NCBI GenBank assembly: GCA_947173945.1
Contig: CAMWGV010000027.1
Location: 1 to 39,147, forward strand
DNA: 39,147 nt
Direction: 5' to 3'
Source of the DNA: an uncultured Lachnospiraceae bacterium
GTDB taxonomy: Bacteria > Bacillota > Clostridia > Lachnospirales > Lachnospiraceae
Shown here piece by piece: positions 437 to 33,061 of the stretch. The notes below the pieces were generated by a model, which was not told where the DNA came from, ran no database searches, and saw only the letters and a list, made by a program, of their open reading frames with translations. How positions within the stretch are numbered: the first letter of the stretch is position 1; every line of letters starts with the position of its first letter. Made by a program: the position numbers and the translations under genes.

Positions 437-832
437 TTGAATAAAAAACGACGCAATATAAATGTGATATATATTTGTTTAGGAATAGTCATCCTTATTT
501 TTTCAATTAGTATTTTTTTGTATCAACGTAGGCAATCGCTTACCTTTTCAACAGAAAAATGGATCAATGGAGCTGATACGGAACGTTATCGCGTTCTTGA
601 TGATTTTACCCGAAATTATAATCTGATTGGTATGAGTGCAGATGATGTAAAGATATTATTGGGTGAGTATAGTATTCGGCGTGAAGCGTTTCCAAGTGAT
701 GAAAAAAGGGTGGATTATTATTGGGGATATATAATTCGCTATGATGATTGGGAGGGTATGGAAGTACTGCTCATTGGTTTAAAAGATGATGTGGTTGTAA
801 ATTATGGGCGTACTTATCTGAGTGAATTGTAA
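437..832 (+). CDS. Small single-pass membrane protein, function unknown
   Basis: This encodes 131 aa starting at TTG, with an AAGGAAAGG ribosome site about 12 bases upstream; no ATG fits. A basic N-terminus (MNKKRRN) precedes one hydrophobic segment at about residues 9-28, leaving a roughly 100-residue domain that is probably extracytoplasmic. The segment LIGMSADDVKILLGE resembles the helix seen in BamE/SmpA-like small lipoprotein folds, but there is no lipobox and the resemblance is weak. I do not recognise a family. A hairpin followed by T residues comes right after the stop, so the transcript probably ends here. Confidence 0.6.
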   Translation: MNKKRRNINVIYICLGIVILIFSISIFLYQRRQSLTFSTEKWINGADTERYRVLDDFTRNYNLIGMSADDVKILLGEYSIRREAFPSDEKRVDYYWGYIIRYDDWEGMEVLLIGLKDDVVVNYGRTYLSEL

Positions 833-8861: not shown

Positions 8862-10826
8862 ATGAACAGCCTGATAAAAACAATTAGGGGGAGAATTACA
8901 TTTCAGACAGCATTATTTTTGGTTTTAACAATTGTAATATGTGAGGTTGTAAGTGTTAATTCATTGAAAAACAATATGACATCACAGGCAGAGGACTTTG
9001 TTAAAGCACAGGCAGAAAGTAATGCTGATGTTGTTGATGAATGGCTTACCGAGCAGGGAAATATAGTACATACATTGCGAAATGCTGTTGCATATATGAA
9101 TAACAAGGATACGGAATTTATTATGGATTATCTGGAAGCGAATTTAAAGGATAACCAGTACGCTCTTATGTACTATGTATGTTTTGGTTATGATGGAGGA
9201 GTATTTCCTGCTGACCATTCAACACTTGATCTTGACCCTACAACAAGAGGTTGGTGGATACAGGCGATTGAGGAGAATGGGCTTATATATACAGCTCCAT
9301 ATAAAGATTTTGCCAGTGGACAAATGATTGTAAGTATTGCAGAGCCACTTATTATTGATGGAGAGCAGGCAGTACTTTTGGCAGATATAACAATAGATAC
9401 ATTGACAGAGCTTGTCAATAATGTTGGAAGTAGCGATGATATACAGGGTTTTTTGCTGGATGCGGATGGAAATGTAATTTCACATGAAAATGAAGCGTTT
9501 CTTCCAAATGAGGATGGAAATACAGTTCTTTCGGATGCTTTAGGAGTAAATATAGAAAGTGTATCAGAAATTACGGATTATGACGGCAGCCGTAAGCTAA
9601 TAAATACAGCAACGATTAAAGCTACAGGATGGACATTTGGTGTTTTGGAATTTAAAGACGTGATATCAAGACGTTTAATAAGAAATATTATAGTTGTTAC
9701 GATTGTGGGAATCATAGTACTTTGTGTAGTTCTGGTACTTCTTTCCGGTACTGTAAAGACAACCTTTAAACCTATAGATACACTGAAAGCTTTTATAAGA
9801 GAAAAAGTAATAGGAGAGGAAAAATGTGTAGCTCAAAAGGATGAGGTGGAGGAAATCAAGTATCTGATCAGTGAGCTTGAGGATCAATTTATAGGTATTA
9901 TACGACAGACAAAGGGTGAATCATACACGATTCATACAAAGATGAAAAGTGCAAGTGAAAAGGTAGGAACCATAAGTGATAATATTATGGACATAAGCGC
10001 TGCAATGGAACAGACCGGTGCAAATGTGGATACACAGACAGAAAGTATAAAAAATATTGATGATACTTGCACGTTAGCAGTAGAAGCAATAGGTAGATTT
10101 GAGCGCACAGCACGGGATATGACAGCCCGTTCTACAGAGGTTATTGATCGAGCAGATAAGCTTGTACCGGAGCTTATACAAAGGAAAGAAAATGCCTTAG
10201 ATGTTGTAAATGACAGTAGGGAAAGATTGCAGTCTGCAATTGAGGACACAAAGGTTATACAACAGATTACAGAGGTTTCTGCCGCTATTCAGGGAATAGC
10301 AGCACAGACAAATCTTCTTGCACTTAATGCTTCTATTGAAGCGGCAAGGGCAGGAGAGGCAGGAAAGGGCTTTGCGGTTGTAGCAGAAGAAATAAAGATG
10401 CTGAGTGAAAGCACTGCAAAAGAAATTGGCAAGGTAAATGAGCTTACATCAAAGGTATTAGAAAGTGTAAGCGAGCTTTCAAAAGAAAGCGACAATATTT
10501 TGGTGTTTATTGATGGTACTGTTCTTAAGGATTATGATAAATTTGAGTCTATGGCACAAAGCTATAGGCAGGATGCAGACTATTATGTTGGAATGAGCGA
10601 TGAGGTCGGCAACAGTGCAAAGGATTTAAGTTCATTTACACAAAATATAAAATCTACATTGACCGCTATCAGAATCGCACAGGATGATTTGTCTCAGGCA
10701 ATGGAGCATGTAAATCAGAATTTACAGAATATCACATATTCCAGTGAGAATATGTCGGAAGAGACAGAGGATGTTTTGAATAGTATTGGAACCTTACAAA
10801 GAACAATGGATAATTTCCGTGTTTAA
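8862..10826 (+). CDS. Methyl-accepting chemotaxis protein with dCache sensor
   Basis: The 654-aa transducer has TM1 (about 15-35), an extracytoplasmic double-Cache domain (about 40-270), TM2 (274-297) and a long cytoplasmic coiled coil. The strongly conserved signalling hairpin is at about 470-514 ([20 protein letters not shown]), where CheA and CheW bind. The sensor has RGWW at 129-132, PYKD at 146-149 and Asp175, close to the amino-acid-binding dCache motif but with Trp where Tyr is usual at 132. Amines or amino acids are therefore possible ligands (inference). The HAMP region after TM2 is degenerate, and no C-terminal CheR pentapeptide is present. The secreted lysozyme gene starts 26 bases downstream, suggesting one transcript. 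Confidence 0.93.
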
Positions 10827-10851
10827 GGTTACCGTGGATAAGGGAGACTAT

Positions 10852-13800
10852 ATGATTAAATTTAAAAAGATTGTTGGAGCCATAGTAACTGCAGCTATTG
10901 TGCTGGGTTCTTTTGGGATGGCAGATGTGGGAGTGTGCCATGCTATGTCTGATGGAGGAGATACTGCAATAGCAACGGACAGTGATGCCACTTCTTATAT
11001 AGATGAAGAAGCAGTTGCCACAGAGGAAGCTGCCGTTGAGAATGAAAGTGTAACTCAGTCTGTAAGTCCTGATGCTAACATTATATATTATGTTGTGTTT
11101 GATGGAAATGGTGCAACGGATGGCGACATGGCCAGACAGAAGTTTACATATGGGAAAAAAGCTAAGCTGGTAGAAAATGAATTTTATAAAGAGGGGTATT
11201 CATTTACCGGTTGGAATACAAAAGCAGACGGAAGCGGAAAAACCTATGAAGATAACAGTGCAGTAAAAAATCTTACAGATAAGAACAAAGGGAAAGTTAA
11301 ATTATATGCACAGTGGAAGAAAACAAAATATAAGATAGTATACAATCTTGATGGTGGACAAAATAATAGTGAGAATCCATCCTATTACTACATTACGAGT
11401 AAGAGAATAATTCTTGCTGACCCGGTGAAAAAGGGCTATACGTTTGAGGGTTGGTATAAGGACAAAAGTTTAACAAAAAAAGTTACAAGAATAAACAGTG
11501 GCAGTACAGGAAAAAAAATCTTTTATGCAAAATGGACACCAAATAAGTTTTATGTGAGATTTAACGGAAACGGAAGTACCGATGGTTCCATGAAGAAGAT
11601 TTCTTTCACATATGGCAAATATAAAAAACTTCCAGCTAATTCTTTTACAAGAAAAGGTTATAAGTTTGTGGGATGGAATACAAAGGCAGACGGGTCGGGA
11701 AAGTCCTACACAGATGGTAAAAATGTAAGAAACCTTGCTACTGTAAATGGGGAAACGAAAATTCTTTATGCACAGTGGAAAAGGGTAAAATACAAGATTG
11801 TGTATGAGCTTGACGGTGGAAAAAATAACAGTAAAAATCCATCTTATTATTATATAACGAGTAAAAGGATAACTCTTGCTGAACCAACAAAAACAGGTTA
11901 TACATTTAATGGCTGGTACAGAGATAAAAAGCTTACAAAACAGGCTGCAAAAATAAACAGTGGCAGCACTGGAAACAGGACCTTCTATGCAAAATGGACA
12001 CCAAATAAATACTATGTGAAGTTTGACTTAAACGGCAGTAAGAGTACTGCAATGAAAAGGAAGGGCTATACATACAGTAAATATTATATATTGCCGAAGT
12101 GCACGTATACAAGGAAGGGCTATAAATTTAATGGCTGGAACACAAAGGCTGATGGTTCGGGAAAAGCATATGCTGATGGTGCAAAGGTTAAAAATCTTTA
12201 TAGCAAGCATAAGGGAACAAGGGTGCTGTATGCACAGTGGAAGCCAATAAGATACACAATTACATACAAGCTTAACGGCGGAAAAAGTGCTACGGGTGCA
12301 GCCGATCATTATTATACAAACAAAGCGGTTACACTTAAGGAACCGACAAGAAGTGGTTATACTTTTGCAGGCTGGTACAAGGAATCTACATGGAAAACCA
12401 AGGTTACTAAGATAAGCGTAGGCCAGACAGGAAATAAAACCTTCTATGCAAAATGGACGCCAAATAAGTTCACATATACCTTTGATGGTAACGGAAGTAC
12501 AAGTGGCTCCATGAAGACGTACACTGCAAGTGTTGTTGGAACGACATATGATATAGCAAATTCCAAGGATTATTTAAATGCCATTGATGTTTCCTCGTGG
12601 CAAAAAAATATAAACTGGAATTCGGTTAAGAATAAAGTAGATGCGGTTATTTTAAGGTGTGGCTACGGAATGGACTACACCTATCAGGATGACTATGAAT
12701 TTGTGAGAAATGCTACTGAGTGTGAGCGGCTTGGAATTCCATATGGAGTTTATTTATATTCTTATGCCACAAATGATAGCAGGGCAAAGAGTGAGGCGGC
12801 ACACATTTTAAGACTTCTTAAGGGAAGGAAGGTTTCGCTTCCTGTATATCTTGACTGTGAGGAGCCGGGAACGGAAGGCTATGCGGCTAGGGCATGTGAG
12901 GTTATCGGCAACATAATACAAAATGCAGGATACATGTTTGGAGTGTATGCTAATACTACATGGTGGAATCGTTATCTTCCGACAGTAACGGGGTACACAA
13001 GATGGGTTGCCCAGTATTACAACATATGTCAATACGGCGGAAAACATGATATATGGCAGTATTCCTCATCGGGATCTGTTGCAGGTATCATAGGCAACGT
13101 TGATATGAATTATATGTATACGAATTTCCAGCAGGCTGATGTGGCAACCTATACGCTTCCTGAAAATGAGTATAAGAGAAAAGGATACACATTTACAGGT
13201 TGGAATTCAAAGGCAGATGGAAGTGGAAAGTCCTATGCAGATGAGGCAAGTATAAAGGCTTCCGCAAAGAAGAACGGACAGGTTACTCTTTATGCACAGT
13301 GGACACCTACCATATATACGATAAGCTACGTTTTGGACGGAGGAAAAAACAGCTCGGCAAATCCGTCAAACTATACGATTGAGTCACAAACTATTACGCT
13401 TAATGCACCGAAAAAAACAGGATATACATTTGTCGGATGGTTTAGTGATGCGGCATACAAGAAGGCAGCTTCCGGTATAAATTCAGGAAGTACCGGCAAC
13501 AAGACCTTTTATGCAAAATGGATAGGTAATGTTTACAGCATAAGATTTGATGGAAACGGATGTACAAGCGGAAGTATGGCTGACCAGAGTTTCCGATATG
13601 GCAACAATGCAAAGAAATTAAGAGCAAATTCTTATAAGAGAGCTGGCTATGATTTTGCAGGCTGGAATACATCTGCAAATGGAAAGGGGACAGCTATTGC
13701 TGATACAGGACTTGTGGGAGTCGGAGATGATGCAACAGCACATCTTTCCAAAAATCAGGATGCTGTTGTAGTGCTGTATGCCCAGTGGACTGTACATGAA

Positions 13801-14109
13801 TACAAAATAACATATGTATTAAATGGCGGAACTAACAATGCGAAAAATCCGGAAAGCTATAATGTAGAGACTAGCTTTAAGATTTATGCTCCAAAGAGAG
13901 AGGGATATGATTTTGCGGGTTGGTACATTGATGCAGATTTGAAAACAGAGTTTTCTACGGATACTATCGCTGATAAGCCAAAGAACATTAAGCTTTATGC
14001 TAAGTGGGAAAGTAATGTTGTTGAGGCAAATGAAGCAGCAGAAGAAAATGAGGTTGAAAACAATACTTCAGACACGGATATTTTAACAGAACAGGAAACT
14101 GATAAGTAA
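10852..14109 (+). CDS. Large secreted lysozyme: GH25 domain nested in InlB-type repeats
   Basis: I choose ATG 10852 (1085 aa), preceded by AGGGAGA and followed by a signal peptide (IKFKKIVGAIVTAAIVLG); an upstream in-frame ATG lies inside the receptor gene. From about residue 77 there are ten Listeria-Bacteroides (InlB B / Flg_new) repeats of two alternating kinds: A units with GW-N-T-KADGSGK ending LYAQW, and B units starting Y-x-LDGG and ending FYAKW. The fourth A unit is split: its first strands end near residue 570, a complete GH25 muramidase (about 574-762) follows, and the unit resumes with TLPENEYKRKGYTFTGW. The GH25 domain keeps the DVSSWQ start and the acidic YLDCEE strand, so it should cut peptidoglycan. 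No LPXTG signal. Probably surface-associated. Confidence 0.88.
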   Translation: MIKFKKIVGAIVTAAIVLGSFGMADVGVCHAMSDGGDTAIATDSDATSYIDEEAVATEEAAVENESVTQSVSPDANIIYYVVFDGNGATDGDMARQKFTYGKKAKLVENEFYKEGYSFTGWNTKADGSGKTYEDNSAVKNLTDKNKGKVKLYAQWKKTKYKIVYNLDGGQNNSENPSYYYITSKRIILADPVKKGYTFEGWYKDKSLTKKVTRINSGSTGKKIFYAKWTPNKFYVRFNGNGSTDGSMKKISFTYGKYKKLPANSFTRKGYKFVGWNTKADGSGKSYTDGKNVRNLATVNGETKILYAQWKRVKYKIVYELDGGKNNSKNPSYYYITSKRITLAEPTKTGYTFNGWYRDKKLTKQAAKINSGSTGNRTFYAKWTPNKYYVKFDLNGSKSTAMKRKGYTYSKYYILPKCTYTRKGYKFNGWNTKADGSGKAYADGAKVKNLYSKHKGTRVLYAQWKPIRYTITYKLNGGKSATGAADHYYTNKAVTLKEPTRSGYTFAGWYKESTWKTKVTKISVGQTGNKTFYAKWTPNKFTYTFDGNGSTSGSMKTYTASVVGTTYDIANSKDYLNAIDVSSWQKNINWNSVKNKVDAVILRCGYGMDYTYQDDYEFVRNATECERLGIPYGVYLYSYATNDSRAKSEAAHILRLLKGRKVSLPVYLDCEEPGTEGYAARACEVIGNIIQNAGYMFGVYANTTWWNRYLPTVTGYTRWVAQYYNICQYGGKHDIWQYSSSGSVAGIIGNVDMNYMYTNFQQADVATYTLPENEYKRKGYTFTGWNSKADGSGKSYADEASIKASAKKNGQVTLYAQWTPTIYTISYVLDGGKNSSANPSNYTIESQTITLNAPKKTGYTFVGWFSDAAYKKAASGINSGSTGNKTFYAKWIGNVYSIRFDGNGCTSGSMADQSFRYGNNAKKLRANSYKRAGYDFAGWNTSANGKGTAIADTGLVGVGDDATAHLSKNQDAVVVLYAQWTVHEYKITYVLNGGTNNAKNPESYNVETSFKIYAPKREGYDFAGWYIDADLKTEFSTDTIADKPKNIKLYAKWESNVVEANEAAEENEVENNTSDTDILTEQETDK

Positions 14110-22949: not shown

Positions 22950-24338
22950 ATGGAAAAGACAATGGAGAAAATAGTTTCACTCGCTAAATCAAGAGGATTC
23001 ATATATCCCGGTTCAGAGATTTATGGAGGATTAGCCAATACATGGGACTATGGAAATCTGGGCGTTGAGTTTAAGAACAATGTGAAAAAGGCATGGTGGA
23101 AAAAATTTATACAGGAGAATCCTTACAACGTAGGTGTTGACTGTGCCATACTTATGAACCCACAGACATGGGTTGCATCCGGACACGTTGGAAGCTTTTC
23201 GGATCCGCTTATTGACTGTAAGGAATGTCATGAAAGATTCCGGGCGGACAAGATTATAGAGGACTTTATGCAGGAAAACGGTATTGCCTTAGAGGGCAGC
23301 GTTGATGCATGGGGCAAGGATGAAATGGTAAATTTTATTGAAGAAAAGAATGTGTGCTGTCCAAGCTGCGGAAAGCACAATTTTACTGACATAAGGGAAT
23401 TTAATCTTATGTTCAAGACATTTCAGGGCGTTACGGAGGATTCATCCGCCACATTATATTTAAGACCTGAGACTGCACAGGGAATTTTTGTAAACTTCAA
23501 GAATGTTCAGAGAACATCAAGAAAGAAAATTCCGTTTGGTATCGGTCAGATAGGAAAATCATTCAGAAATGAAATTACACCTGGAAACTTTACATTCCGG
23601 ACGAGAGAGTTTGAGCAGATGGAGCTTGAATTTTTCTGTGAGCCTGATACAGACCTTGAGTGGTTTGCATACTGGAAGGATTTTTGTATTAACTGGCTCA
23701 AGGAGCTTGGCATGAAGGAAGACGAGATGAGATATCGTGATCATGACAAGGAGGAGCTTTCCTTCTATAGTAAGGCAACAACTGATATAGAATTTTTATT
23801 CCCATTTGGATGGGGAGAGCTTTGGGGAATCGCTGACAGAACAGACTATGACCTTACACAGCATCAGAACACCTCAAAGGAGCCGATGGATTACTTTGAC
23901 GATGAGAAGAAGATAAAGTATGTGCCATATGTAATAGAGCCATCACTTGGAGCTGACCGTGTCACACTTGCATTTTTGTGCTCTGCATACGATGAGGAGG
24001 AGCTTGAGGGCGGTGATACAAGAACTGTACTCCATTTCCATCCTGCACTTGCACCTGTAAAGATAGGTGTGCTTCCACTTTCAAAGAAGCTGAATGAGGG
24101 TGCGGAGAAAATATATACGGAGCTTTCAAAATATTACAACTGTGAGTTTGACGACAGAGGTAATATCGGAAAGAGATACAGAAGACAGGATGAGATTGGA
24201 ACTCCGTTCTGTGTAACCTACGATTTTGACTCTGAAAATGACGGAGCAGTAACCGTAAGAGACAGAGACACAATGGAGCAGGAGAGAATAAAGATAGAAG
24301 ATTTAAAGGCTTATTTTGAGAAGAAGCTGTACTATTAA
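22950..24338 (+). CDS. glyQS: Glycyl-tRNA synthetase, single-chain dimeric type
   Basis: This 462-aa class II synthetase charges tRNA-Gly. It is the eukaryote/archaea-like homodimeric form, not the separate glyQ and glyS subunits. Signatures include [20 protein letters not shown] at the N-terminus, a zinc-like cysteine set (CKEC and CPSCGKHN) and class II motifs 2 and 3 around [22 protein letters not shown] and the later EPSLGADR segment. The C-terminal anticodon-binding domain is complete. AGAGAGGTG lies about 13 bases before the ATG, a little far. The gap from recO is only 68 bases, too short for a T-box leader. Confidence 0.97.
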
Positions 24339-24372
24339 ATGAATAGAAACATGGCAAAATAATGTAATTTAG

Positions 24373-24418
24373 AAAAAACCGGCAGTATATGCTACGAGTA
24401 GTATACTGTCGGTTTTTT
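24373..24418 (+). terminator. Intrinsic terminator after glyQS
   Basis: A 17-pair stem, 24373-24389 with 24402-24418, including AAAAAACCGGCAGTATA on the left and one G-U pair. The right arm ends in six T residues. It closes the M16C-era-recO-glyQS segment. Confidence 0.92.
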
Positions 24419-24479
24419 GTTTGTTGTCAAAAAAGATTACTGCACAAAATCATTAGAACAATGTTATGGTTGTTCCTAA

Positions 24480-24600
24480 TTTAGTTTACATAACTTTTAG
24501 TAGGGCGAAAAGTAATAAAAATAGTACTTAAAGTACCAATAATGGTACAAAAAAACTAGCTGATTTTTGGTAAAAATTGCTATATAATTTTATTATATTT
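24480..24600 (+). promoter_or_regulatory. GTAC-box promoter module A (first ABC exporter)
   Basis: This occupies most of the gap between glyQS and the ABC genes. TTTAGTTTACATAA is at 24480-24493. GTAC boxes start at 24524, 24533 and 24545; the first two form a perfect palindrome, GTACTT-A-AAGTAC, and the last two form GTACCA-ATAA-TGGTAC. TATAAT is at 24583-24588 with a weak -35. The same elements recur with the same spacing at 27861-27981, before the second exporter. Likely an activator- or repressor-controlled promoter. The remaining ~100 bases to the start codon are an AT-rich leader with no recognised structure. Confidence 0.75.
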
Positions 24601-24706
24601 TGGATGTTAAACTAAAATACAAAAAATGAAATTATTCAAAAACAATTGACAGCAAATGATGTTTTTGCACAAGTTACAATCTATAACAAAGGGGGAGTAC
24701 AGTTAT

Positions 24707-25366
24707 ATGATAAAAATAATAAATCTGAAAAAGCAATATGGAACAGACAGTGCCAAATGTATTGCATTGAATAATTTAAATCTGGAATTGCCGGAAAAAA
24801 AGTTTATAGCAATTACCGGAAAGAGCGGTAGTGGCAAGACAACACTGCTTAATATGATTGGATTAATTGACAAGCCGAATTCTGGTGCCATAGAGGTAGA
24901 TGGAAAGAATATATTTAAATTCAGCAAAAAGGAAATCAGGGAATACAGACGAAATACGATAGGCGTTGTATTCCAATTTTTTCAGCTCATACCGGTGATT
25001 AACTGTTTTGACAACATAGTAATTGCAAATGAATTTGCTGCAAAATATGAAAAAGAATATTTTGATGAGTTAGTTGAAAAATTGGATATAGAAGATTTGT
25101 TAAATAAATATCCGGAGCAATTATCAGGAGGACAGCAGCAAAGAATAGCGATAGCAAGAGCTCTGATTAACCGTCCAAAGATAATCCTTGCAGATGAACC
25201 TACAGGAAATTTAGATTCTGAAAACAGCGAAAGTGTAGTCAATTTACTGAAAAGTGTTGTGGACCAGTATGATATAACGCTGATAATGGTCACACATGAC
25301 AACGATATAGCAAAGCAGGCTGACGTAAATGTATGCCTGGTTGATGGAAGAACAGATGCTCAATAG
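24707..25366 (+). CDS. ABC transporter ATP-binding protein (MacB/LolD/BceA type)
   Basis: The 219-aa ATPase starts at ATG 24707, nine bases after GGGGGAG; an in-frame ATG further upstream has no ribosome site. All motifs are present: Walker A GKSGSGKTT, Q-loop VFQFFQ, signature LSGGQQQR, Walker B ILADEPTGNLDSE and H-loop VTHD. The LSGGQQQR plus DEPTGNLD pattern is typical of the family that works with FtsX-like permeases in lipoprotein release, peptide export or antimicrobial peptide resistance. The permease gene starts 18 bases downstream. Regulated by module A. Substrate unknown. Confidence 0.93.
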   Translation: MIKIINLKKQYGTDSAKCIALNNLNLELPEKKFIAITGKSGSGKTTLLNMIGLIDKPNSGAIEVDGKNIFKFSKKEIREYRRNTIGVVFQFFQLIPVINCFDNIVIANEFAAKYEKEYFDELVEKLDIEDLLNKYPEQLSGGQQQRIAIARALINRPKIILADEPTGNLDSENSESVVNLLKSVVDQYDITLIMVTHDNDIAKQADVNVCLVDGRTDAQ

Positions 25367-25384
25367 ATTGGGGAGAGAACATTT

Positions 25385-27766
25385 ATGATATTAAAATTAA
25401 TTATCGGAAATATCCTAGGTAACAAAAAGAAAACCATAAGCTCTATTCTAGGGATTTGTATATCGGTAATGCTGATATTTGTGGTTATTAATACATATGT
25501 ATCCTTTCAGAAAATGCGTTTGGAAAATGCGTATGATGCCTATGGGGAATATAATATTATTCTGCATGAAGTAAATCAGGAAGCATATAAATGGATTAAC
25601 AATAAGTCTGACAGATATACTCTTATCGGAGTTGAAAAGATAATTGGTGTGACCGATTCCCAAATCGCTATATTAGACAGTGGCCGCAATTCAACTCAAA
25701 TGAATCGGTATAAGCTTGTGGAAGGAACATTTCCGGAGCAGGCAGGAGAGGTTGCGATATCTGCAACTGCCAAGCTGAATGATGAGTTCATAATAAGTAA
25801 ATACAACGTAGGTGACAGCATTGAGCTGAATGGAAGCAACTATGTTATTTCGGGTATTCTAGATGATTACGATTACAGTACGGTAGACACTTATAAGGTC
25901 GCATTAATAAAAAGTGAAAATGCGGCAGATATCTACAATATATATTTGCATTGTGCCGGAAAAAGAGAGTATTTACGGGCTTTAAAGGAGATAAAAGAGT
26001 ATCTCGGTTTAGATGACAGCAGTATTTATCATGGAGACAAGGAGTATGGGTTCCTTTCCGGTTATACAATGATTTTAAATGATGAACTGAATCTAGTGGA
26101 GTTTGAAGGCAATGGAGGTTTGGATGATGTTAATATAGGACGAATGCTTTTCTTTTTTGCGGTTGTACTGATCTTATCATCCGTAATTCTTGGCCTTCAT
26201 ATATTTGCATCCTATCTGCATGGCAGAAATAAACAGCAGGGAATACTGCTCAGTCTCGGTTTCCCCAATTTATATATTTCATGCATGTATTTCGTTGAAT
26301 GTCTGATTCTAGTGGTTGTTGGCTGTCTTATGGGAACTTTGTTCGGACGGTATTTAACTGCTTTTTTGTTTGACTGCATTCAAAATATGCGCGTTACGAG
26401 GTTGGAAAATTTTAAGCCGCAGTTTACGGCACAGTCATACATGCTTGCAATTACGGTAAGCACGGTAGGTTTTATTTGCGGACTCCTGCCTGTAATAGTA
26501 AGAAACATGAATGCAGGAATTCATGAGATGATCAAGAGCAGGAGAAAAAAATATATTGATAATGTGACAGGAGTAAATAAACATAAACGTAAATTTATTA
26601 CATTTAAATATTTCCGCAAGGATAGCTATACATTTGAAAAAATATGTATTTATACGTCAATGATTATGATTGGATTGAGCTTAGTATTGTTGATTTATGT
26701 AAATAAGTATGTAAACTACACACTTTCTCTTAGGGAGGAACATGATTCGAAATTTGTCTTGTTATCCGATGACATAAGCTTAATGGGCGGGTTTGAAAAG
26801 CTGATACCCGGGGTTACATACTACGATATGGTTTATGATACACATGGGGTGTTCCATGTCGGCAGGGATAATATCAATGAAAAATATAAAGACGTGCTTA
26901 TGTTTAAAGAGGCTGATTCTGTATACTGTGAGATTGCAGGGGTAAGTGAACAACAGTACAATAATAAGATAGAATCGGACTCTGGGATGACATATGAGGA
27001 GTTTGTCAATATGGGAGGCGCGATTGTCATTGACAATTATTTAACGGGAGATGACCGAATTTTAAAGGAATTACCGGAAACCTTAAAGTATGACGGAAGG
27101 TATGACTATGACTTTGGGATTACATACGACCCAGGGGAAGTGAAAATAATAGGGCATGGGAAGTTTAAAAACTGGGATGATCAAAGAGGCATATCCATCA
27201 TTGTTCCTGATGAAATGTTTAAGGAAAAATTTGATTATACAACTGTAAGGATTAGCATAAATGTGAAGGACGGATATGAAATTAAAGCCGCAGAAATGCT
27301 GAATCAATGTGCTTTGAAATATAAGTATTCGTTTCATGATTATGTGACTGAATATATAAAAGAGCAGGATAACAACATGACTATCCGTGTATATACATAT
27401 GGGGTTTTCCTATTTATTACGGTAATGAATTTGTTTATCATCGTCTATGTAAATATTTTAGTATATATACGTAGAGGAAGAAACATATCAATTCTCAAAA
27501 CCTTGGGCCATTCTGACATAAGGATAATATGCCCTATGATAATTGAGGTAATAGTGCAAAGTATTGTTGGTGCAGTTATATCGGTGTTTATCAGTACAGT
27601 TGCATCAAAACGATTGCTTCCGGAAGTGACGCAACATGTAATTCTTACAAATGGTGCAGGAAATATTTTGTATGTTTTATTGTTTTTGGTTGTAACACAA
27701 ATGGTAGCCATTACAGTTATATTTATACGGGTACGAAAGCAGGAGATAATATATGATTTAAGATAA
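25385..27766 (+). CDS. FtsX-like ABC permease, fused double unit (8 TM)
   Basis: The 793-aa membrane protein is two FtsX/MacB permease units in one chain. Unit 1: TM1 about 18-38, an extracellular domain about 40-250, then TMs near 254-277, 298-320 and 350-372. Unit 2: TM about 421-440, a second extracellular domain about 445-655, then three TMs near 660-685, 710-730 and 755-775. This mechanotransmission layout suits export or extraction of a peptide or lipid from the outer leaflet. The extracellular regions resemble MacB-type periplasmic folds only in general plan. Partner ATPase is immediately upstream. Family clear, substrate unknown. Confidence 0.88.
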   Translation: MILKLIIGNILGNKKKTISSILGICISVMLIFVVINTYVSFQKMRLENAYDAYGEYNIILHEVNQEAYKWINNKSDRYTLIGVEKIIGVTDSQIAILDSGRNSTQMNRYKLVEGTFPEQAGEVAISATAKLNDEFIISKYNVGDSIELNGSNYVISGILDDYDYSTVDTYKVALIKSENAADIYNIYLHCAGKREYLRALKEIKEYLGLDDSSIYHGDKEYGFLSGYTMILNDELNLVEFEGNGGLDDVNIGRMLFFFAVVLILSSVILGLHIFASYLHGRNKQQGILLSLGFPNLYISCMYFVECLILVVVGCLMGTLFGRYLTAFLFDCIQNMRVTRLENFKPQFTAQSYMLAITVSTVGFICGLLPVIVRNMNAGIHEMIKSRRKKYIDNVTGVNKHKRKFITFKYFRKDSYTFEKICIYTSMIMIGLSLVLLIYVNKYVNYTLSLREEHDSKFVLLSDDISLMGGFEKLIPGVTYYDMVYDTHGVFHVGRDNINEKYKDVLMFKEADSVYCEIAGVSEQQYNNKIESDSGMTYEEFVNMGGAIVIDNYLTGDDRILKELPETLKYDGRYDYDFGITYDPGEVKIIGHGKFKNWDDQRGISIIVPDEMFKEKFDYTTVRISINVKDGYEIKAAEMLNQCALKYKYSFHDYVTEYIKEQDNNMTIRVYTYGVFLFITVMNLFIIVYVNILVYIRRGRNISILKTLGHSDIRIICPMIIEVIVQSIVGAVISVFISTVASKRLLPEVTQHVILTNGAGNILYVLLFLVVTQMVAITVIFIRVRKQEIIYDLR

Positions 27767-27860
27767 AAGTTATGACATCAAAACGAAGAGTATAATGCAA
27801 TTTTTATTCATTGCTTTGGCTTAAGGATTTGAAAAGTATGTCTTTAAACAAGATTGTTAA

Positions 27861-27981
27861 TTTGGTTAACATAATTTAAAGTGGTACTAACAGTAATAAA
27901 AATGGTACTGAAAGTACTAAAAGTGGTACAAAGTGATGAGGTGACTTATCGGGGATGATGTTGTATAATTTTATTATATGT
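27861..27981 (+). promoter_or_regulatory. GTAC-box promoter module B (secreted protein and second ABC exporter)
   Basis: This lies in the 353-base gap between the two exporter units. It aligns without gaps to module A, offset 3381: TTTGGTTAACATAA at 27861-27874, GTAC at 27905, 27914 and 27926, and TATAAT at 27964-27969. By eye 35 of 40 bases match over the GTAC array and 18 of 20 around the -10. An extra GTAC is at 27884. The 5' part of the gap (27767-27860) shows nothing clear apart from a weak GCAAT/ATTGC hairpin; the leader after the promoter holds an orphan AAAGGGGGG site near 28048. Confidence 0.75.
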
Positions 27982-28119
27982 AAAATTTTGAAAATATAAT
28001 GCAAAATATGTAATAAATTTAGCATTATAATTCAAATGCTCATAAATAAAGGGGGGATACAAAAATTATACAATAATAACTTGTAAATATGTAATTAAGA
28101 AGAATAGGGGAGAAAAAGT

Positions 28120-28575
28120 ATGAAAATCAAAAAAATTGGAATTTCAATATGTTTATTAACAATGGTATTAGTGTTTTTCGGAAATACAGCAGGAGCGAGA
28201 GCATTTTATAATGGAACGTCAAAAGTTAAAGTCACATCAGGAAATTTAAGACCTGGTACTGATAGAGCAGAAGCATATTGTTATGCTTGTGTTGAGGGAA
28301 ACCGTTTTACGAATAGAAAAACTAATAGTCGTACAGCGGGAACTGGATATATATTTTATTATAGTCCGTCGAAAAAGAAATATACAACTAAAGACTTTAA
28401 TGGAATAAAAACTATATACAAATCAGGAGAAAAATTTGAGATAATAAATAAGAAAGGAAAAGATCTTGATAATAAATACAAGGATGTGTATGCAATGTCA
28501 ATATATTGTACATTTACACTTAAATGTAACAAATGTGGTGCATATGAAAGACGTATAAAAAATGCAATTGAATAA
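28120..28575 (+). CDS. Small secreted basic cysteine-containing protein, unknown
   Basis: The 151-aa precursor has a clear signal peptide (KIKKIG, hydrophobic 7-20) with a likely signal peptidase I site after ARA at residue 28. The mature ~123 residues are rich in Lys, Arg, Tyr and Thr, with five cysteines: CYAC at 54-57, Cys130, and CNKC at 136-139. The two CxxC pairs could bind zinc or form disulfides. I do not recognise a family. It is the first gene of a tight four-gene operon with two half permeases and an ATPase, so it may be the exporter's substrate, its partner, or a sensor or immunity factor. GGGGAG sits about ten bases before the ATG. Confidence 0.72.
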   Translation: MKIKKIGISICLLTMVLVFFGNTAGARAFYNGTSKVKVTSGNLRPGTDRAEAYCYACVEGNRFTNRKTNSRTAGTGYIFYYSPSKKKYTTKDFNGIKTIYKSGEKFEIINKKGKDLDNKYKDVYAMSIYCTFTLKCNKCGAYERRIKNAIE

Positions 28576-28587
28576 GGATAAGCAACA

Positions 28588-29787
28588 ATGAATTACATAT
28601 ATTTTTTAATTCAAAAGAATAAGGAACGATTTGGAACATTTCTCATGTATACTATACTGATTGGTTTGTTCACAGCTTTTTTCGGATTTACATTAGGTAA
28701 CGTGAGCTATGAACAGGAAGGTATAAAACTTCTTAAAGACATGGAAAACTGTTGCTTTATTGTGTCATATTCTGATGAAGGTGTATTTTATAATGAAAGT
28801 GTATTATATGACGAAGATGAATTGTATAATGAAACCCCTTTTATTACGGTAGATAAGCTTCCGAAAAAAGATGATATTATATATGATGCAGGAATTTTTA
28901 GAATTGATGAAGTTTGGAGTGATGCTGATATTTTATCATCGTCCCAACTATTTGCTTCACATATAAATTGGAATCTGGCAGAGGGAAAAGGTTTTACTGA
29001 CAATCCTAATGAGGTTATTTTGCTAGGCAATAAAGGATATTATCAAATTGGAGATATAATAGAGATTAAAAATGATGATGGCGAAATTATTTGTCAATGT
29101 GAGGTTGTAGGAATAAATAGATATCCTGTTTTTTTAGAAGAAAATGGTAATATAGGGACAGAATATGATGAATATGATGATTTTGTATGCACTATACCTT
29201 TCGCTTTTGTAACTGGAAATTACAGAAACGGTGTGGACGGAGAAACAATGTTCCTAAATCCTAAAAATGCGTTGGCATATGAGTATGGTAGTAAAAACGT
29301 TAGTTATATTTTTACAACTCAATCTGATATATCAGATAAAAAAGATGCATTTCGTGAGTTTGAGGAATACGGTGAACTTAATTTAGTGAGTGAACTTCAA
29401 AAGAGAAAAATGTCTTTCTGGGATATGGATACTGCGATATTGGATGTTTGCCTTCTGATTATATTCATATGTGGAGTCATTGTGCATAATTACCTGTCAA
29501 TCGTTCGAAATCAACGTGAATATGGTATTTACTATATGCTTGGAATGAGCTGGAACAAGCTTGTTGTTTTGTTGTCGCTTCAGAATATATTTGCCTTTGT
29601 ATGTGGTTTTTTACTTGGAAGCTCATTTGTTTATCGTGCGTCATTAAAGGTAGATATATTATTTATATGGAAAAACCAGTTTGGTATTCTTGCAGGTGTT
29701 TTGGGGATTTATCTCATATCAATTATACCGATTTTGCTAAAAATGCGTAAGCTGGACCCGGTGGAACTGATTATAAAAGAGGAGTAA
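28588..29787 (+). CDS. FtsX-like ABC permease, half-size subunit 1
   Basis: The 399-aa protein has one FtsX unit: TM1 about 17-37, an acidic, Asp/Glu/Tyr-rich extracellular domain (about 40-280), then TMs near 285-305, 325-348 and 363-384. The segment between TM2 and TM3 (NQREYGIYYMLGMSWNKL) matches the usual R-x-x-E-x-G/A-x-x-x-x-LG coupling region. The C-terminus (KLDPVELIIKEE) is typical of FtsX permeases. It starts 12 bases after the secreted-protein gene, and the next permease begins one base after its stop. Together the two halves would form a heterodimeric exporter. Confidence 0.85.
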   Translation: MNYIYFLIQKNKERFGTFLMYTILIGLFTAFFGFTLGNVSYEQEGIKLLKDMENCCFIVSYSDEGVFYNESVLYDEDELYNETPFITVDKLPKKDDIIYDAGIFRIDEVWSDADILSSSQLFASHINWNLAEGKGFTDNPNEVILLGNKGYYQIGDIIEIKNDDGEIICQCEVVGINRYPVFLEENGNIGTEYDEYDDFVCTIPFAFVTGNYRNGVDGETMFLNPKNALAYEYGSKNVSYIFTTQSDISDKKDAFREFEEYGELNLVSELQKRKMSFWDMDTAILDVCLLIIFICGVIVHNYLSIVRNQREYGIYYMLGMSWNKLVVLLSLQNIFAFVCGFLLGSSFVYRASLKVDILFIWKNQFGILAGVLGIYLISIIPILLKMRKLDPVELIIKEE

Positions 29788-29788
29788 T

Positions 29789-30805
29789 ATGTGGAAACTA
29801 TTAAAAGAAAGCATAAGGCATTACAGAAAATTGATTATTGCATGTATCATAGTTACTATGCTTGTTTATGGTGCGACACAGGTGATGCTTACATATTATT
29901 ATCATGATATTATATCTAATCAGGATGAAGCAAGATATATGCAATGCGAAATTTTTTTGAAGAAGCCAATTGCCATAAGTGAGCTGTCAGATGTGGAAGA
30001 CTATTGTATTCAAAATATACCGGATTATGATATGTCAGCATATGTTGTGAATGAAGTAGATGGATTTAACATCATCGCTGTAAAGCCGGGAGATGAAGCA
30101 AAGCTTTGTAAAGGTGCGGAAGCACTCAAAGTTGATGAGGCAATTGTCATGTCAGTTTTTTTGCCCATCCTTGAGGAAATGTACAGTGGTTACATAGGAA
30201 TTGCAACATCAAATGTTGTGGTATGTGGATGCACACCGCTTTTTGTTGGAGCTATTGTATCTGTTGAGTCAGTGAAGTCGGAAGCGGTAAGCAGTATGGT
30301 AATATCCTGCACAAAACCGATTACGTATAGTGACAGGGTTAAAATTAAAAAAGCATTTAAAGATATAAATGTTGATGCTGATATAAGTTATATGACAGAG
30401 TTTAAATGGCTGTTAGGCAACGTGGAATATTATAAAGCTTCGGTTATACTCGGACTGGGAATCGTTATTTTTGCATTGCTGTCAATTGGAATTTTGGTGA
30501 GCTATATGATTCAGAAGCAGAAAAAGGAAATCATTGTGTTTATGCTCTGTGGAGCAAATATAAGACATCTGCGGCGATTTTATATAGGAGAGTATATGCT
30601 TATGCAGCTGCTATCCCTGCTTTTTGGATGTGGAGTAGCATTTATTATGGTAAGATTTATGGGAATATTTGAATTTAATGATGTGTATGTTCTTCCATTT
30701 ATTTTATGCATTATTATTTCTATATGTTGTGGACTGATGGAAGTAATCACGATTAACCGGTTGCTTAAAAAGGATATAAATGTACAGTGGAGGAAGCTTG
30801 TATGA
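29789..30805 (+). CDS. FtsX-like ABC permease, half-size subunit 2
   Basis: The 338-aa protein has TM1 about 15-38, an extracellular domain (about 40-215), and three further TMs near 217-240, 270-291 and 300-325. MIQKQKKEIIVFMLCGANIRHLRRF between TM2 and TM3 is the cytoplasmic coupling region, with the E-x-x-x-x-x-x-x-G pattern of FtsX permeases. It is shorter and more diverged than its neighbour. Its ribosome site (GAGGAG) lies inside the end of the preceding gene, and its stop overlaps the ATPase start as ATGA, so translation is probably coupled. Likely the second half of the heterodimer. Confidence 0.8.
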   Translation: MWKLLKESIRHYRKLIIACIIVTMLVYGATQVMLTYYYHDIISNQDEARYMQCEIFLKKPIAISELSDVEDYCIQNIPDYDMSAYVVNEVDGFNIIAVKPGDEAKLCKGAEALKVDEAIVMSVFLPILEEMYSGYIGIATSNVVVCGCTPLFVGAIVSVESVKSEAVSSMVISCTKPITYSDRVKIKKAFKDINVDADISYMTEFKWLLGNVEYYKASVILGLGIVIFALLSIGILVSYMIQKQKKEIIVFMLCGANIRHLRRFYIGEYMLMQLLSLLFGCGVAFIMVRFMGIFEFNDVYVLPFILCIIISICCGLMEVITINRLLKKDINVQWRKLV

Positions 30806-31488
30806 CATTAGTTAAAATGAATAAGATTAGTAAAATATATAATAAGGGTAAAAAGAACCAGTTCAAGGCATTGAATGAGATTGATTTCAGTGTCGATGAA
30901 GGAGATATGATTGCCATAAGAGGAAGCTCTGGTGCAGGAAAATCTACATTGCTTCATATCATCGGCTGCATGGATACACAAACCTCAGGTCATTACTATT
31001 TTTGCGGAGAGTATGTAAAAGATATGACCCAGCAGCAAAAGGCAGTGATTCGAAATAAAAAAATCGGATTTGTATTGCAGGATTTTGGACTTTTGGAATA
31101 CCAGAGTGTTTTGGATGCCGTTTCATTGCCACTGTTGTTTTCAAATGAAATACCTGTAAGTAAAATGAAAAAGCACTGCCTAGAGTATCTGGCTGAGGTT
31201 GGACTTCAGGGGTATGCAACAAAGACTGTAAATGAACTTTCGGGAGGAGAAAAACAGCGGGTTGCCATTGCAAGAGCTTTAGTAAATAATCCGTCACTTA
31301 TCTTGGCAGACGAGCCTACAGGTGCACTTGATGAGGAAAATGCCTACAATGTAATGAAGCTTCTCCAGAAGTTAAACGAGAACGGAAAGGCTGTAGTAAT
31401 TGTCACTCACGATTCAGATATCGCAAATATGTGCAAAACACAAATTACAATGAAATATGGTGAATTAAAAAGTGCTGATGAAAAATAA
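30802..31488 (+). CDS. ABC transporter ATP-binding protein of the second exporter
   Basis: The 228-aa ATPase starts at ATG 30802, seven bases after GGAGGA; an in-frame GTG at 30787 is less likely. Motifs: Walker A GSSGAGKST, Q-loop VLQDFGLL, signature LSGGEKQR, Walker B LILADEPTGALDEE, H-loop VTHD. This is the same MacB/LolD-type subfamily as the ATPase at 24707 but clearly diverged from it. It completes the secreted protein-permease-permease-ATPase operon under module B. Confidence 0.93.
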   Translation: MTLVKMNKISKIYNKGKKNQFKALNEIDFSVDEGDMIAIRGSSGAGKSTLLHIIGCMDTQTSGHYYFCGEYVKDMTQQQKAVIRNKKIGFVLQDFGLLEYQSVLDAVSLPLLFSNEIPVSKMKKHCLEYLAEVGLQGYATKTVNELSGGEKQRVAIARALVNNPSLILADEPTGALDEENAYNVMKLLQKLNENGKAVVIVTHDSDIANMCKTQITMKYGELKSADEK

Positions 31489-31504
31489 GTTTTAAATTAA
31501 TATG

Positions 31505-31533
31505 ATGACAAAACAAAAAGTATGGTGTATAAT
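31505..31533 (+). promoter_or_regulatory. Promoter for the XRE regulator
   Basis: ATGACA at 31505-31510 and TATAAT at 31528-31533 with an ideal 17-base spacer. It lacks the GTAC array of modules A and B, so the regulator gene is probably expressed independently of the exporters. Confidence 0.65.
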
Positions 31534-31613
31534 TTGTATTCAATAGGGGATTTTTAGTTTCTTATACATATATGTTCTGTCAGAAAATTCTACAAAAGAG
31601 GGGAGATTCGTGA

Positions 31614-31826
31614 ATGTATGACAAGAATGCCATCGGAAAGAGGATTAAAGCACTTCGCTGTATAACCGGAAAAACACAGCTTGAGGTGGCGCGGGAAATT
31701 GGAATATCCGTGGAAACAATCCGTAAGCTTGAGCAGGGGAAAAGGGGGTTGTCCTTAGAGATATTAGATTCGATAAAGGACTATTATGGTGCTGAGTTAG
31801 AGTATATATTGTATGGTGATAATTAA
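31614..31826 (+). CDS. Single-domain XRE/Cro-type HTH regulator
   Basis: The 70-aa protein is essentially only a helix-turn-helix: MYDKNAIGKRIKALRCITGKTQLEVAREIGISVETIRKLEQGKRG includes the five-helix XRE core, with the recognition helix at about residues 32-42, followed by a short helix. No ligand or dimer domain is visible. GAGGGGAGA precedes the ATG. Its position at the end of the exporter region, with its own promoter, makes it a candidate to bind the GTAC boxes in modules A and B; this is inference. The start codon overlaps another ATG at 31618 in a different frame, which quickly stops. Confidence 0.85.
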   Translation: MYDKNAIGKRIKALRCITGKTQLEVAREIGISVETIRKLEQGKRGLSLEILDSIKDYYGAELEYILYGDN

Positions 31827-31839
31827 ATTGGATTCTTAT

Positions 31840-31877
31840 GCTGTCTGTCTGAACTATATGGGATGGACAGCTTTTTT
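31840..31877 (+). terminator. Intrinsic terminator after the XRE gene
   Basis: GCTGTCTGTC at 31840-31849 pairs with GATGGACAGC at 31862-31871 (two wobble pairs) around a 12-base loop, followed by six T residues. Confidence 0.82.
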
Positions 31878-31901
31878 ATGTAAAAATTATATTTTTTATG
31901 C

Positions 31902-31930
31902 TTGACAACAACTATATGTAGTGATAGATT
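31902..31930 (+). promoter_or_regulatory. Promoter of the hrcA-dnaK operon
   Basis: A perfect TTGACA at 31902-31907, a 17-base spacer and TAGATT at 31925-31930. This is the strongest sigma-A promoter in the window, and the CIRCE operator follows 12 bases later. Confidence 0.88.
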
Positions 31931-31942
31931 ATCATATATAGA

Positions 31943-31969
31943 TTAGCACTCGGATTAAATGAGTGCTAA
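31943..31969 (+). promoter_or_regulatory. CIRCE operator of the hrcA-dnaK operon
   Basis: TTAGCACTC at 31943-31951, nine-base spacer, GAGTGCTAA at 31961-31969, both arms perfect. HrcA, the first gene of this operon, binds CIRCE, so the operon should be autoregulated. Confidence 0.98.
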
Positions 31970-32017
31970 TAATACGATTTTGAATAGGCTGATGTTCAAA
32001 ACAGGAAGGGTGATGAT

Positions 32018-33061
32018 ATGGAGCTTGATGAGCGTAAGAAGAAAATCCTTAAAGCCATTATAGCGAATTACCTAGAGACAGGTGAGCCGGTTGGTTCACG
32101 AACAATTTCAAAGTATACAGACCTTAATTTAAGTTCAGCAACAATTCGAAATGAGATGGCTGATCTGGAGGAGATGGGTTATATTATACAGCCACACACT
32201 TCCGCAGGAAGAATTCCAACTGACATGGGCTACAGATTTTATGTTGACAGTCTCATGGAGGAAAAAGGAGACGTGGAGGAAGAAAAAAGCTCGCTTTTGG
32301 AACGGGTTGACAGGATGGAGCTTTTACTGAAACAGGTTGCCAAGGTACTGGCTTACAACACAAACTACGCTACCATGGTTACGGCACCCAAGTATAAGAA
32401 GACAGTGAAATTTATACAGCTTTCAAGAGTTGACATGGATAATCTTTTAGCTGTCATTGTAGTGGAAGGAAACATTATCAAGAATAAGCTTATAGATGTA
32501 AAGGTAGAGCTGGATAATGAGGACGTTTTGAAGTTTAATATACTTCTTAATACATTTCTTCAGGGTGCATCATTAGAGGATATCAATTTAGAAATGATTC
32601 AGGCTATGAAGGCACAATCCGGTGAGTATGCTCCTATACTTGAGGACATATTTTCGGGGATTGTGGATGCCATACATGATGCTAACGAATTGGAAATTTA
32701 TACCAGCGGTGCCACAAATATCCTGAAATATCCTGAAATAGGCGATATAAGGCAAACGAGCGAGTTGCTTGAAACATTTGAAGATAAAAATGAGCTGTCA
32801 CATCTTATAGAAGAAACTGTAAGTAAGGCAGACGGTACAGGAATTCAGGTGTATATCGGCGAGGAGGCACCGGGACAAAATATGAAAGACTGTTCCATTG
32901 TAACAGCCACATATAAGATGCCGGAAGGAGCCGAGGGTACGATTGGTATATTAGGTCCCAAAAGGATGGATTACAAAAAGGTAGTAAATACACTGAAAAA
33001 TCTTACGATTGAGTTGGATGAGATATTTAAAAAAGGTGAAGGGGTGAATAATGATGGCTAA
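32018..33061 (+). CDS. hrcA: Heat-inducible transcription repressor HrcA
   Basis: The 347-aa repressor binds CIRCE and is kept active by GroEL. The N-terminal winged-helix region is clear (ERKKKILKAIIANYLETGEPVGS, then SSATIRNEMADLEEMGYI and HTSAGRIPTDMGYRFYVD), followed by the GAF-like and dimerisation domains. Standard length. The GGAAGG ribosome site lies about eight bases before the ATG. It heads hrcA-grpE-dnaK-dnaJ-prmA, the usual Firmicute order, and its 3' end overlaps grpE by 11 bases. Expected targets here: both CIRCE sites. Confidence 0.98.
   Translation: MELDERKKKILKAIIANYLETGEPVGSRTISKYTDLNLSSATIRNEMADLEEMGYIIQPHTSAGRIPTDMGYRFYVDSLMEEKGDVEEEKSSLLERVDRMELLLKQVAKVLAYNTNYATMVTAPKYKKTVKFIQLSRVDMDNLLAVIVVEGNIIKNKLIDVKVELDNEDVLKFNILLNTFLQGASLEDINLEMIQAMKAQSGEYAPILEDIFSGIVDAIHDANELEIYTSGATNILKYPEIGDIRQTSELLETFEDKNELSHLIEETVSKADGTGIQVYIGEEAPGQNMKDCSIVTATYKMPEGAEGTIGILGPKRMDYKKVVNTLKNLTIELDEIFKKGEGVNNDG

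Follow-up and report, generated by a model that had tools for sequence, protein, structure and literature searches.

A glyS-hrcA site with changing secreted-protein and FtsX-type ABC transporter cargo in a Lachnospiraceae genus

In the lactococcin 972 and streptococcin loci (lcn972-orf2-orf3, scbABC), as described in the excerpts cited here, a small unmodified bacteriocin gene precedes genes for a membrane protein and an ATPase that are thought to give immunity, and a ComR-type regulator is encoded next to scb (PMC11796350, PMC4055356). For streptococcin B, 157 of 571 genomes are reported in such an excerpt to keep only ScbBC, and the functions of the B and C proteins are described there as unverified in any lactococcin 972 locus (PMC11796350). 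Type VII (mechanotransmitting) ATP-binding cassette (ABC) systems with partner proteins are also well described, at least in the portions cited (PMC12646458, PMC7668044, PMC6355983). The locus considered here lies in a 39,147-nucleotide stretch from an uncultured Lachnospiraceae bacterium (assembly GCA_947173945.1, contig CAMWGV010000027.1, forward strand), the whole of which we call the window. Two FtsX-type ABC systems and a 70-residue XRE gene occupy the interval between glyS (22950-24338) and hrcA (from 32018). Operon 1 consists of an ATPase gene and a gene for a 793-residue duplicated FtsX permease; operon 2 has the order sec151-permA-permB-ATPase 2, in which sec151 encodes a small protein with a secretion signal, and the XRE gene then follows.

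We tentatively read the glyS-hrcA interval as an exchangeable site for bacteriocin-like cassettes, organised as in lactococcin 972 loci, with the ABC transporters giving self-protection. This reading is favoured because a recurrent layout carries unrelated cargo, because the cargo changes at one site, and because the secreted proteins fall into six families with no clear similarity. It is favoured also because secreted genes and transporters are coupled in presence and decay, in that genome G333 lacks sec151 and has a broken permA, a sec140 system in genome G302 is degraded, and operon 1 of the window stands without sec140, the secreted gene that accompanies such operons in relatives. A link to agr, in which a sec140 operon lies beside AgrB, GHKL and LytTR genes and 9 of 24 XRE relatives lie near such genes, and a mosaic history recorded in synonymous divergence (dS) complete the grounds for it.

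Two exporter operons and an XRE gene

The features of the interval are as follows.

24477..24611, + strand: operon 1 promoter module, with dyad GTACTTAAAGTAC at 24524-24536, GGTAC at 24544-24548 and TATAAT at 24583-24588
24707..25366, + strand: ATPase 1 (best start 24707), LolD/MacB-type ABC ATPase; ABC_tran at 3.5e-35, Walker A and LSGGQ, ribosome-binding site and ATG by reading
25385..27766, + strand: fused (duplicated) FtsX permease, 793 residues; FtsX at 5.1e-18 in two stretches, and hydropathy
27858..27992, + strand: operon 2 promoter module, with dyad GTACTGAAAGTAC at 27905-27917, a weaker copy at 27884-27896, GGTAC at 27925-27929, a -35 element GTGACT at 27941-27946 and TATAAT at 27964-27969
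28120..28575, + strand: sec151, small basic protein of 151 residues with Sec-type signal and the pattern CxxC...C...CxxC
28588..29787, + strand: permA, FtsX half-permease; FtsX at E 1.1e-5, four hydrophobic segments
29789..30805, + strand: permB, FtsX half-permease; FtsX at E 2.5e-9, hydropathy and orthologues
30802..31488, + strand: ATPase 2; ABC_tran, nearest NCBIfam models LolD and L_ocin_972_ABC, under both cut-offs
31505..31533, + strand: probable promoter serving XRE itself, ATGACA-17-TATAAT, with no GTAC dyad; highest-scoring sigma-70-like site in 24300-32050 (11 of 12 positions)
31614..31826, + strand: single-domain XRE regulator, 70 residues; HTH_3 at E 8.5e-11

Pfam and sequence comparison bear out every gene that the initial annotation had named here, namely two differently built ABC exporters, a secreted 151-residue protein and an XRE regulator side by side. 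The FtsX domain scores above the Pfam cut-off in all three permeases, in permA by a margin of 0.4 bits (25.9 against 25.5), and ABC_tran is present in both stand-alone ATPases, as in type VII systems. Hydropathy also gives the type VII arrangement, in which each FtsX unit has four helices and a large loop follows the first of them: the fused permease has eight hydrophobic segments in two sets with two large loops, and permA has four with a loop at about residues 37-276, while permB is less clear, with one extra weak stretch and its last segment merged. Neither ATPase reaches any of the NCBIfam equivalog cut-offs shown. The same-site XRE orthologues are 60-87% identical among five genomes. GC content is 29% in sec151, 32-38% in the other five operon genes and 40-42% in glyS, hrcA and dnaK. 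A scan of 24300-32050 for sigma-70-like promoters gave 44 sites against 42.7 in shuffled sequence, that is, no excess, and Rfam gave no match at the gathering threshold. As the initial annotation had stated, no histidine kinase or response regulator lies nearby, at least among the 20 other window proteins scanned against Pfam (the GroEL- and DnaK-like genes lay outside this set, as did two small open reading frames that are at an edge or overlap); AgrB, GHKL kinase and LytTR regulator are likewise absent from the scanned proteins.

The sec151 protein carries a Sec-type signal at about residues 1-28, judged by eye with the hydrophobic segment confirmed by hydropathy, and its mature part of about 123 residues has a calculated isoelectric point of 9.6. 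That it belongs to no recognised family, as first proposed, is upheld by profile searches, which gave no match above cut-off in Pfam, NCBIfam, PADLOC or PHROGs. It is, as judged from substitution patterns, a selected protein: its orthologues are 77% and 70% identical, and the ratio of nonsynonymous to synonymous divergence (dN/dS) is 0.18-0.34, a looser constraint than on ATPase 2 (0.04-0.10) or glyS (0.01-0.02). A structure model of moderate confidence is all-beta; the fold search yielded generic beta-sandwiches only among the matches listed, and the absence of lactococcin 972 from that list excludes nothing. No relative of weight was found by sequence among solved structures. Full-length sec151 is present in 3 of 37 genus genomes, with no credible copy beyond the genus in 299 family genomes and none in plasmids; a wider contig collection yielded two loci, L008 and L009, which correspond by arrangement and identity to those of genomes G320 and G318. 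Several weaker candidates were set aside. Five matches in family genomes (E 0.002-0.009), all partial and four with stops, were judged to be chance, as were extra matches in the window's own genome (E 0.02) and in G320 contig 9 (5.5e-4, with a stop), and the L009 protein scored 18.2 bits against a phage tail tube model, below its cut-off of 23.6.

Five of the 37 genus genomes have a relative of the fused permease of operon 1, which in one of them is split; in 378 family genomes only the window's own was found at the strict limit of E 1e-40. Directly after it in G320 and G333 lies sec140, encoding another small secreted protein, while the window and G318 keep operon 1 at glyS-hrcA without sec140. 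The trio of ATPase, fused permease (40-41% identical) and sec140 also stands alone in G318 contig 44, with an intact sec140, and in degraded form in G302 contig 52. Since sec140 accompanies operon-1-type systems in relatives, each exporter has its own secreted partner, and operon 1 of the window lacks the one that belongs to it. A search of 397 family genomes found no sec140; the sample holds two genus members, neither with sec140, and thus contains no positive control. Treating sec140 and sec151 as one family is unsupported (hhalign probability 1.2), and for a phage origin there is one weak PHROG match, to the fused permease only. Where sec140 sits in G320 and G333, G318 has a small glyoxalase-like gene on the opposite strand (L009:7063-7497, Pfam E 7.5e-5). 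At L026:6481-13142, in G318, AgrB lies directly upstream of an operon of ATPase, fused FtsX permease and sec140, and genes for a GHKL kinase and a LytTR response regulator are encoded on the opposite strand; this is likely a quorum-sensing-controlled version of operon 1.

Elsewhere in the window, an inverted repeat read from the sequence at 31943-31969 (TTAGCACTC-N9-GAGTGCTAA), which we take to be a CIRCE-like element, stands ahead of hrcA-grpE-dnaK, and a secreted-looking protein of 1107 residues with ten List_Bact repeat stretches and a lysozyme-like glycosyl hydrolase family 25 domain is encoded at 10786-14109.

Promoter modules and changing cargo at one site

The common promoter design noted at the outset is upheld as a direct repeat of 135 nucleotides (24477-24611 and 27858-27992) whose copies are 72% identical, with a local alignment score of 100 that none of 300 dinucleotide shuffles equals (highest 40). 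Its core is a 13-bp dyad, GTACTNNNAGTAC, with a further GGTAC, and in both copies TATAAT starts 35 bp past the last GTAC. The triple GTAC pattern has two sites in the 2.84-Mb genome, which are the two promoters; the reversed control also gives two, and the count is therefore weak alone. An aligned module is found at the glyS-hrcA site before operon 2 in G318 and in G320, where the dyad is lost, before operon 1 in G333, and before a different secreted protein, sec135, in G302. All five sites with a same-site XRE gene thus have an aligned module, four of them with the dyad within one mismatch, and the one empty site examined, in G301, has neither XRE nor dyad. The module stands ahead of both operons only in the window and ahead of one in relatives, and it is apparently a property of the site and not of either exporter. 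The G302 module scores 93 against the operon 1 copy (0 of 300 shuffles as good) and 26 against that of operon 2 (105 of 300), a similarity that is undetectable. Part of the similarity to the operon 1 copy may come from the terminator region after glyS, because the G318 operon 1 region (score 53, 0 of 300) and the empty G301 interval (36, 1 of 300) both score without a dyad. The leaders of different cassettes align weakly. The idea that the dyad marks every XRE cassette was rejected: the 18 regions away from the site have no exact copy and two one-mismatch copies, fewer than expected by chance on our own uncomputed estimate. Binding of the dyad by the XRE protein is plausible from their co-occurrence, though unproven.

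Both operons lie together at glyS-hrcA in 4 of 37 genus genomes, with sec151 before the split permeases in three of the four and XRE after in all four, so that the 151-residue gene is no lone reading frame. Across genomes the site holds sec151 and/or sec140 systems in four; in G302 it carries sec135 together with XRE and the promoter module, and in G301 it is empty. permA itself occurs in four of the 37 genus genomes, one of which, G333, has a broken copy and no sec151. Co-occurrence across Lachnospiraceae, named at the outset as a possible support, is not borne out: at E 1e-8 permA is present in 1 of 378 family genomes, the window's own, and it is absent from the viral contigs searched. The view of the whole as one paired unit, proposed at the outset as co-regulated, holds in part, in that both operons do occur together in those four genomes, whereas operon-1-type systems stand alone in G318 contig 44 and G302 contig 52, the operon 2 layout stands alone at L086, and the paired modules are confined to the window. 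Between the window and G318, dS is 0.29 for permB, 0.34 for ATPase 2, 0.57 for sec151, 0.84 for permA and 0.95 for glyS, with hrcA saturated, values that would fit a recent interspecies exchange involving the 3' portion of operon 2. The region appears to recombine in general, because a comparable break falls between G320 and G318 at glyS (dS 0.27, against 2.1 for hrcA).

XRE-linked cassettes across the genus

Counted at E 1e-12 or better, XRE relatives number 24 in 10 of 37 genus genomes; all were viewed, 5 at glyS-hrcA and 19 in 18 other regions. Nine are in clusters with a small secreted gene (the window, G320, G318, G333, the G302 site, L086, L087, L089 and L091), nine lie by AgrB or a GHKL kinase/LytTR regulator as identified by Pfam (L092, L094, L096, L097, L098, L099, L100, L101 and L103), and six have neither (two in L088; L090, L093, L095 and L102). 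L086, in another species, reproduces the operon 2 order as sec122-permease-permease-ATPase-XRE with an unrelated secreted protein and no operon 1, and its permeases are 19-24% identical to permA over parts. An expanded layout at L091, in a third species, comprises sec131, a 175-residue protein, four permeases, an ATPase and XRE, while L087 and L089 combine sec164 or sec162 with DUF6034-type genes and membrane proteins that have no Pfam match above cut-off.

A secreted gene is present in all six loci in which an ATPase and FtsX genes lie directly upstream of XRE (the window, L008, L009, L025, L086 and L091), which amount to three independent instances because four of them are one site in related genomes. 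By a crude signal-peptide rule, 8 of the 9 cassette loci have a secreted gene (L089 is missed), compared with 1 of the 14 remaining XRE regions of the genus and 2 of 11 regions in other genera, a set that leaves out L124; the rule also flags one further open reading frame in the window (437-832). No convincing similarity links the six families of secreted proteins, sec151, sec140, sec135, sec122, sec131 and sec164/162, the nearest cross-family match being between sec135 and sec162 at E 0.002 in an 11-sequence set and falling, in BLAST, over the signal-peptide region.

Three XRE-linked secreted-protein operons are preceded by a conserved leader open reading frame of 16-18 codons with a strong ribosome-binding site and the core TD-K/R-A/V-IN-A/V-I (L086:3177-3227, L087:2442-2498, L091:178-228); it may act as a leader in regulation or encode a small signal peptide, and no such peptide was found in the window. 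DUF6034 genes lie in or beside cassettes at L086:1726-3132, L087:3935-5383 and L089:8127-9428 (Pfam E 4e-12, 7e-16 and 3e-22), and L091:7287-8708 resembles them with no Pfam match. Similar sets of XRE, AgrB, response-regulator-like and GHKL kinase genes at L100:2576-7312, L101:6899-11634 and L124:6896-11644, the first two in two genus genomes and the third in another genus with a serine recombinase gene (Resolvase) nearby, are probably mobile agr elements. AgrB is found in one of 12 XRE regions from other genera.

Interpretation and comparison with known systems

The chief rival to a bacteriocin-like cassette sees in each operon a type VII ABC system that works with a dedicated, non-toxic extracytoplasmic partner, the secreted protein being the working arm that modifies or clears something at the envelope. 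The FtsX folds and lone ATPases speak for it, as do the pairing of ABC sets with a secreted gene in all six clusters (three independent) and the breakage of permA where sec151 is absent. It does not predict the retention of operon 1 without a secreted gene in the window and G318; moreover, the secreted proteins give way to unrelated ones from locus to locus, which sets them apart from known partners, no enzyme family matched any of them, and presence is patchy at 3 of 37 genomes. We regard this rival as somewhat unlikely.

A role in defence against antimicrobial peptides or envelope stress, with the ABC transporters expelling or detoxifying foreign peptides and the secreted protein as an accessory, recalls BceAB or YxdLM-YxeA; FtsX permeases are typical of such systems, and yxdLM of Bacillus subtilis has a small secreted neighbour, YxeA. 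The absence of a BceRS-type kinase and regulator pair from the scanned window proteins, permeases that hydropathy resolves into four-helix halves or a duplicated form rather than the ten-helix BceB type, and the lack of any PADLOC match for permeases or secreted proteins (the ATPases lay outside that scan) make it improbable, and the changing cargo would need another reason. Anti-phage defence was set aside, with no PADLOC match except HTH models to XRE. Least probable, and indeed very unlikely, is that the transporters process or export quorum-sensing peptides of the agr type, with the secreted proteins as signals or carriers. Here agr neighbours, seen at one operon-1-type locus and with 9 of 24 XRE relatives, are in its favour; against it, no agr gene is among the scanned window proteins, mature sec151 with its predicted beta fold and about 123 residues is unlike short AgrD peptides, and agr has its own processor, AgrB.

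If the locus is instead, as seems the most likely of these readings, a bacteriocin-like cassette site, sec151 would be a small basic Sec-targeted beta-sheet protein acting outside the cell on competing relatives, and permA, permB and ATPase 2 would protect the producer by removing sec151 or its target complex from the membrane, or would activate sec151. Operon 1 would be the remnant of a second such cassette, from which the toxin-like sec140 has been lost and the ATPase and fused permease are left as orphan immunity, while the XRE protein, or another regulator, would act on the GTAC dyad that precedes the -35 element and in this way control the promoter module. Peptide export with self-protection, one possibility raised by the initial annotation, is still the most probable function, though for each operon taken by itself. 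Several observations weigh against the bacteriocin-like reading. None of the secreted proteins falls into a known family of toxins or bacteriocins; ATPase 2 (218.0 bits) falls below the lactococcin-972 ABC cut-off of 254.85, and permA (14.1) far below the 189.35 of the immunity family; and changing secreted partners would fit non-toxic defence or signalling too. No dyad precedes the operons of XRE paralogues whose recognition helix is almost identical, and the G320 module has lost its own. The rate of 8 in 9 for secreted genes is partly circular, because that set was defined by the secreted gene, whereas the count of six in six is not circular. At L092, L100 and L101 ABC genes lie near XRE with no such secreted gene beside them. 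Outside the genus, XRE matches occur in 16 genomes, and the 12 regions viewed, from 12 of these genomes, contain no exporter cassette.

A broader and more doubtful proposal is that these loci form a new class of polymorphic antagonism cassettes in the genus, in which the XRE module stays constant, as does the promoter module at one site, while unrelated small secreted effectors and their FtsX-type immunity transporters are exchanged between species; the class would be tied to agr quorum sensing and comprise at least six new effector families. Were the cassette reading right, these bacteria would carry unrecognised families of secreted effectors that escape every family model used here and are picked up instead from the arrangement of their genes (secreted gene, FtsX permeases, ATPase, XRE). 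The fixed glyS-hrcA site with its changing cargo offers producer-type, immune-only-type and empty genomes for comparison. Among the literature matches listed, none describes this layout by title or abstract, a weak negative.

Set beside known systems, the locus shares with type VII transporters (FtsEX, LolCDE, MacB, YbbAP) an ATPase with FtsX-domain permeases and extracytoplasmic partners, EnvC or PcsB for FtsEX and TesA for YbbAP, and operon 2 resembles LolCDE in having two different permease halves. To our knowledge the partners of described type VII systems are conserved, whereas here they change between unrelated families. With BceAB and YxdLM-YxeA it shares an FtsX permease and an ATPase, but it has another permease layout by hydropathy and no BceRS-like system in the scanned window. 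The duplicated ADOP-type permeases (TIGR03434) provide the best NCBIfam model for the fused permease, at 45.4 bits, far under the cut-off of 622.3. Lactococcin 972 loci are alike in placing the secreted gene before membrane-protein and ATPase genes, and in having strains that keep only the immunity or transport part; they differ in that a 7-helix immunity protein takes the place of two FtsX halves or a duplicated FtsX permease, and in that the scb regulator is of ComR type and lies before the operon, where here a single-domain XRE follows it. By sequence, no lactococcin match was obtained for sec151 or sec140 in Pfam and NCBIfam to E 5, nor for sec135, sec122, sec131, sec164 or sec162 in Pfam to 0.05; L_ocin_972_ABC (TIGR03608) is second best for ATPase 2, at the score given above and without membership, and permA lies outside the 7-helix family TIGR01654. 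Because order and logic are alike but none of these three sequence comparisons gives membership, the locus may represent a variant of lactococcin-like loci built from new protein families.

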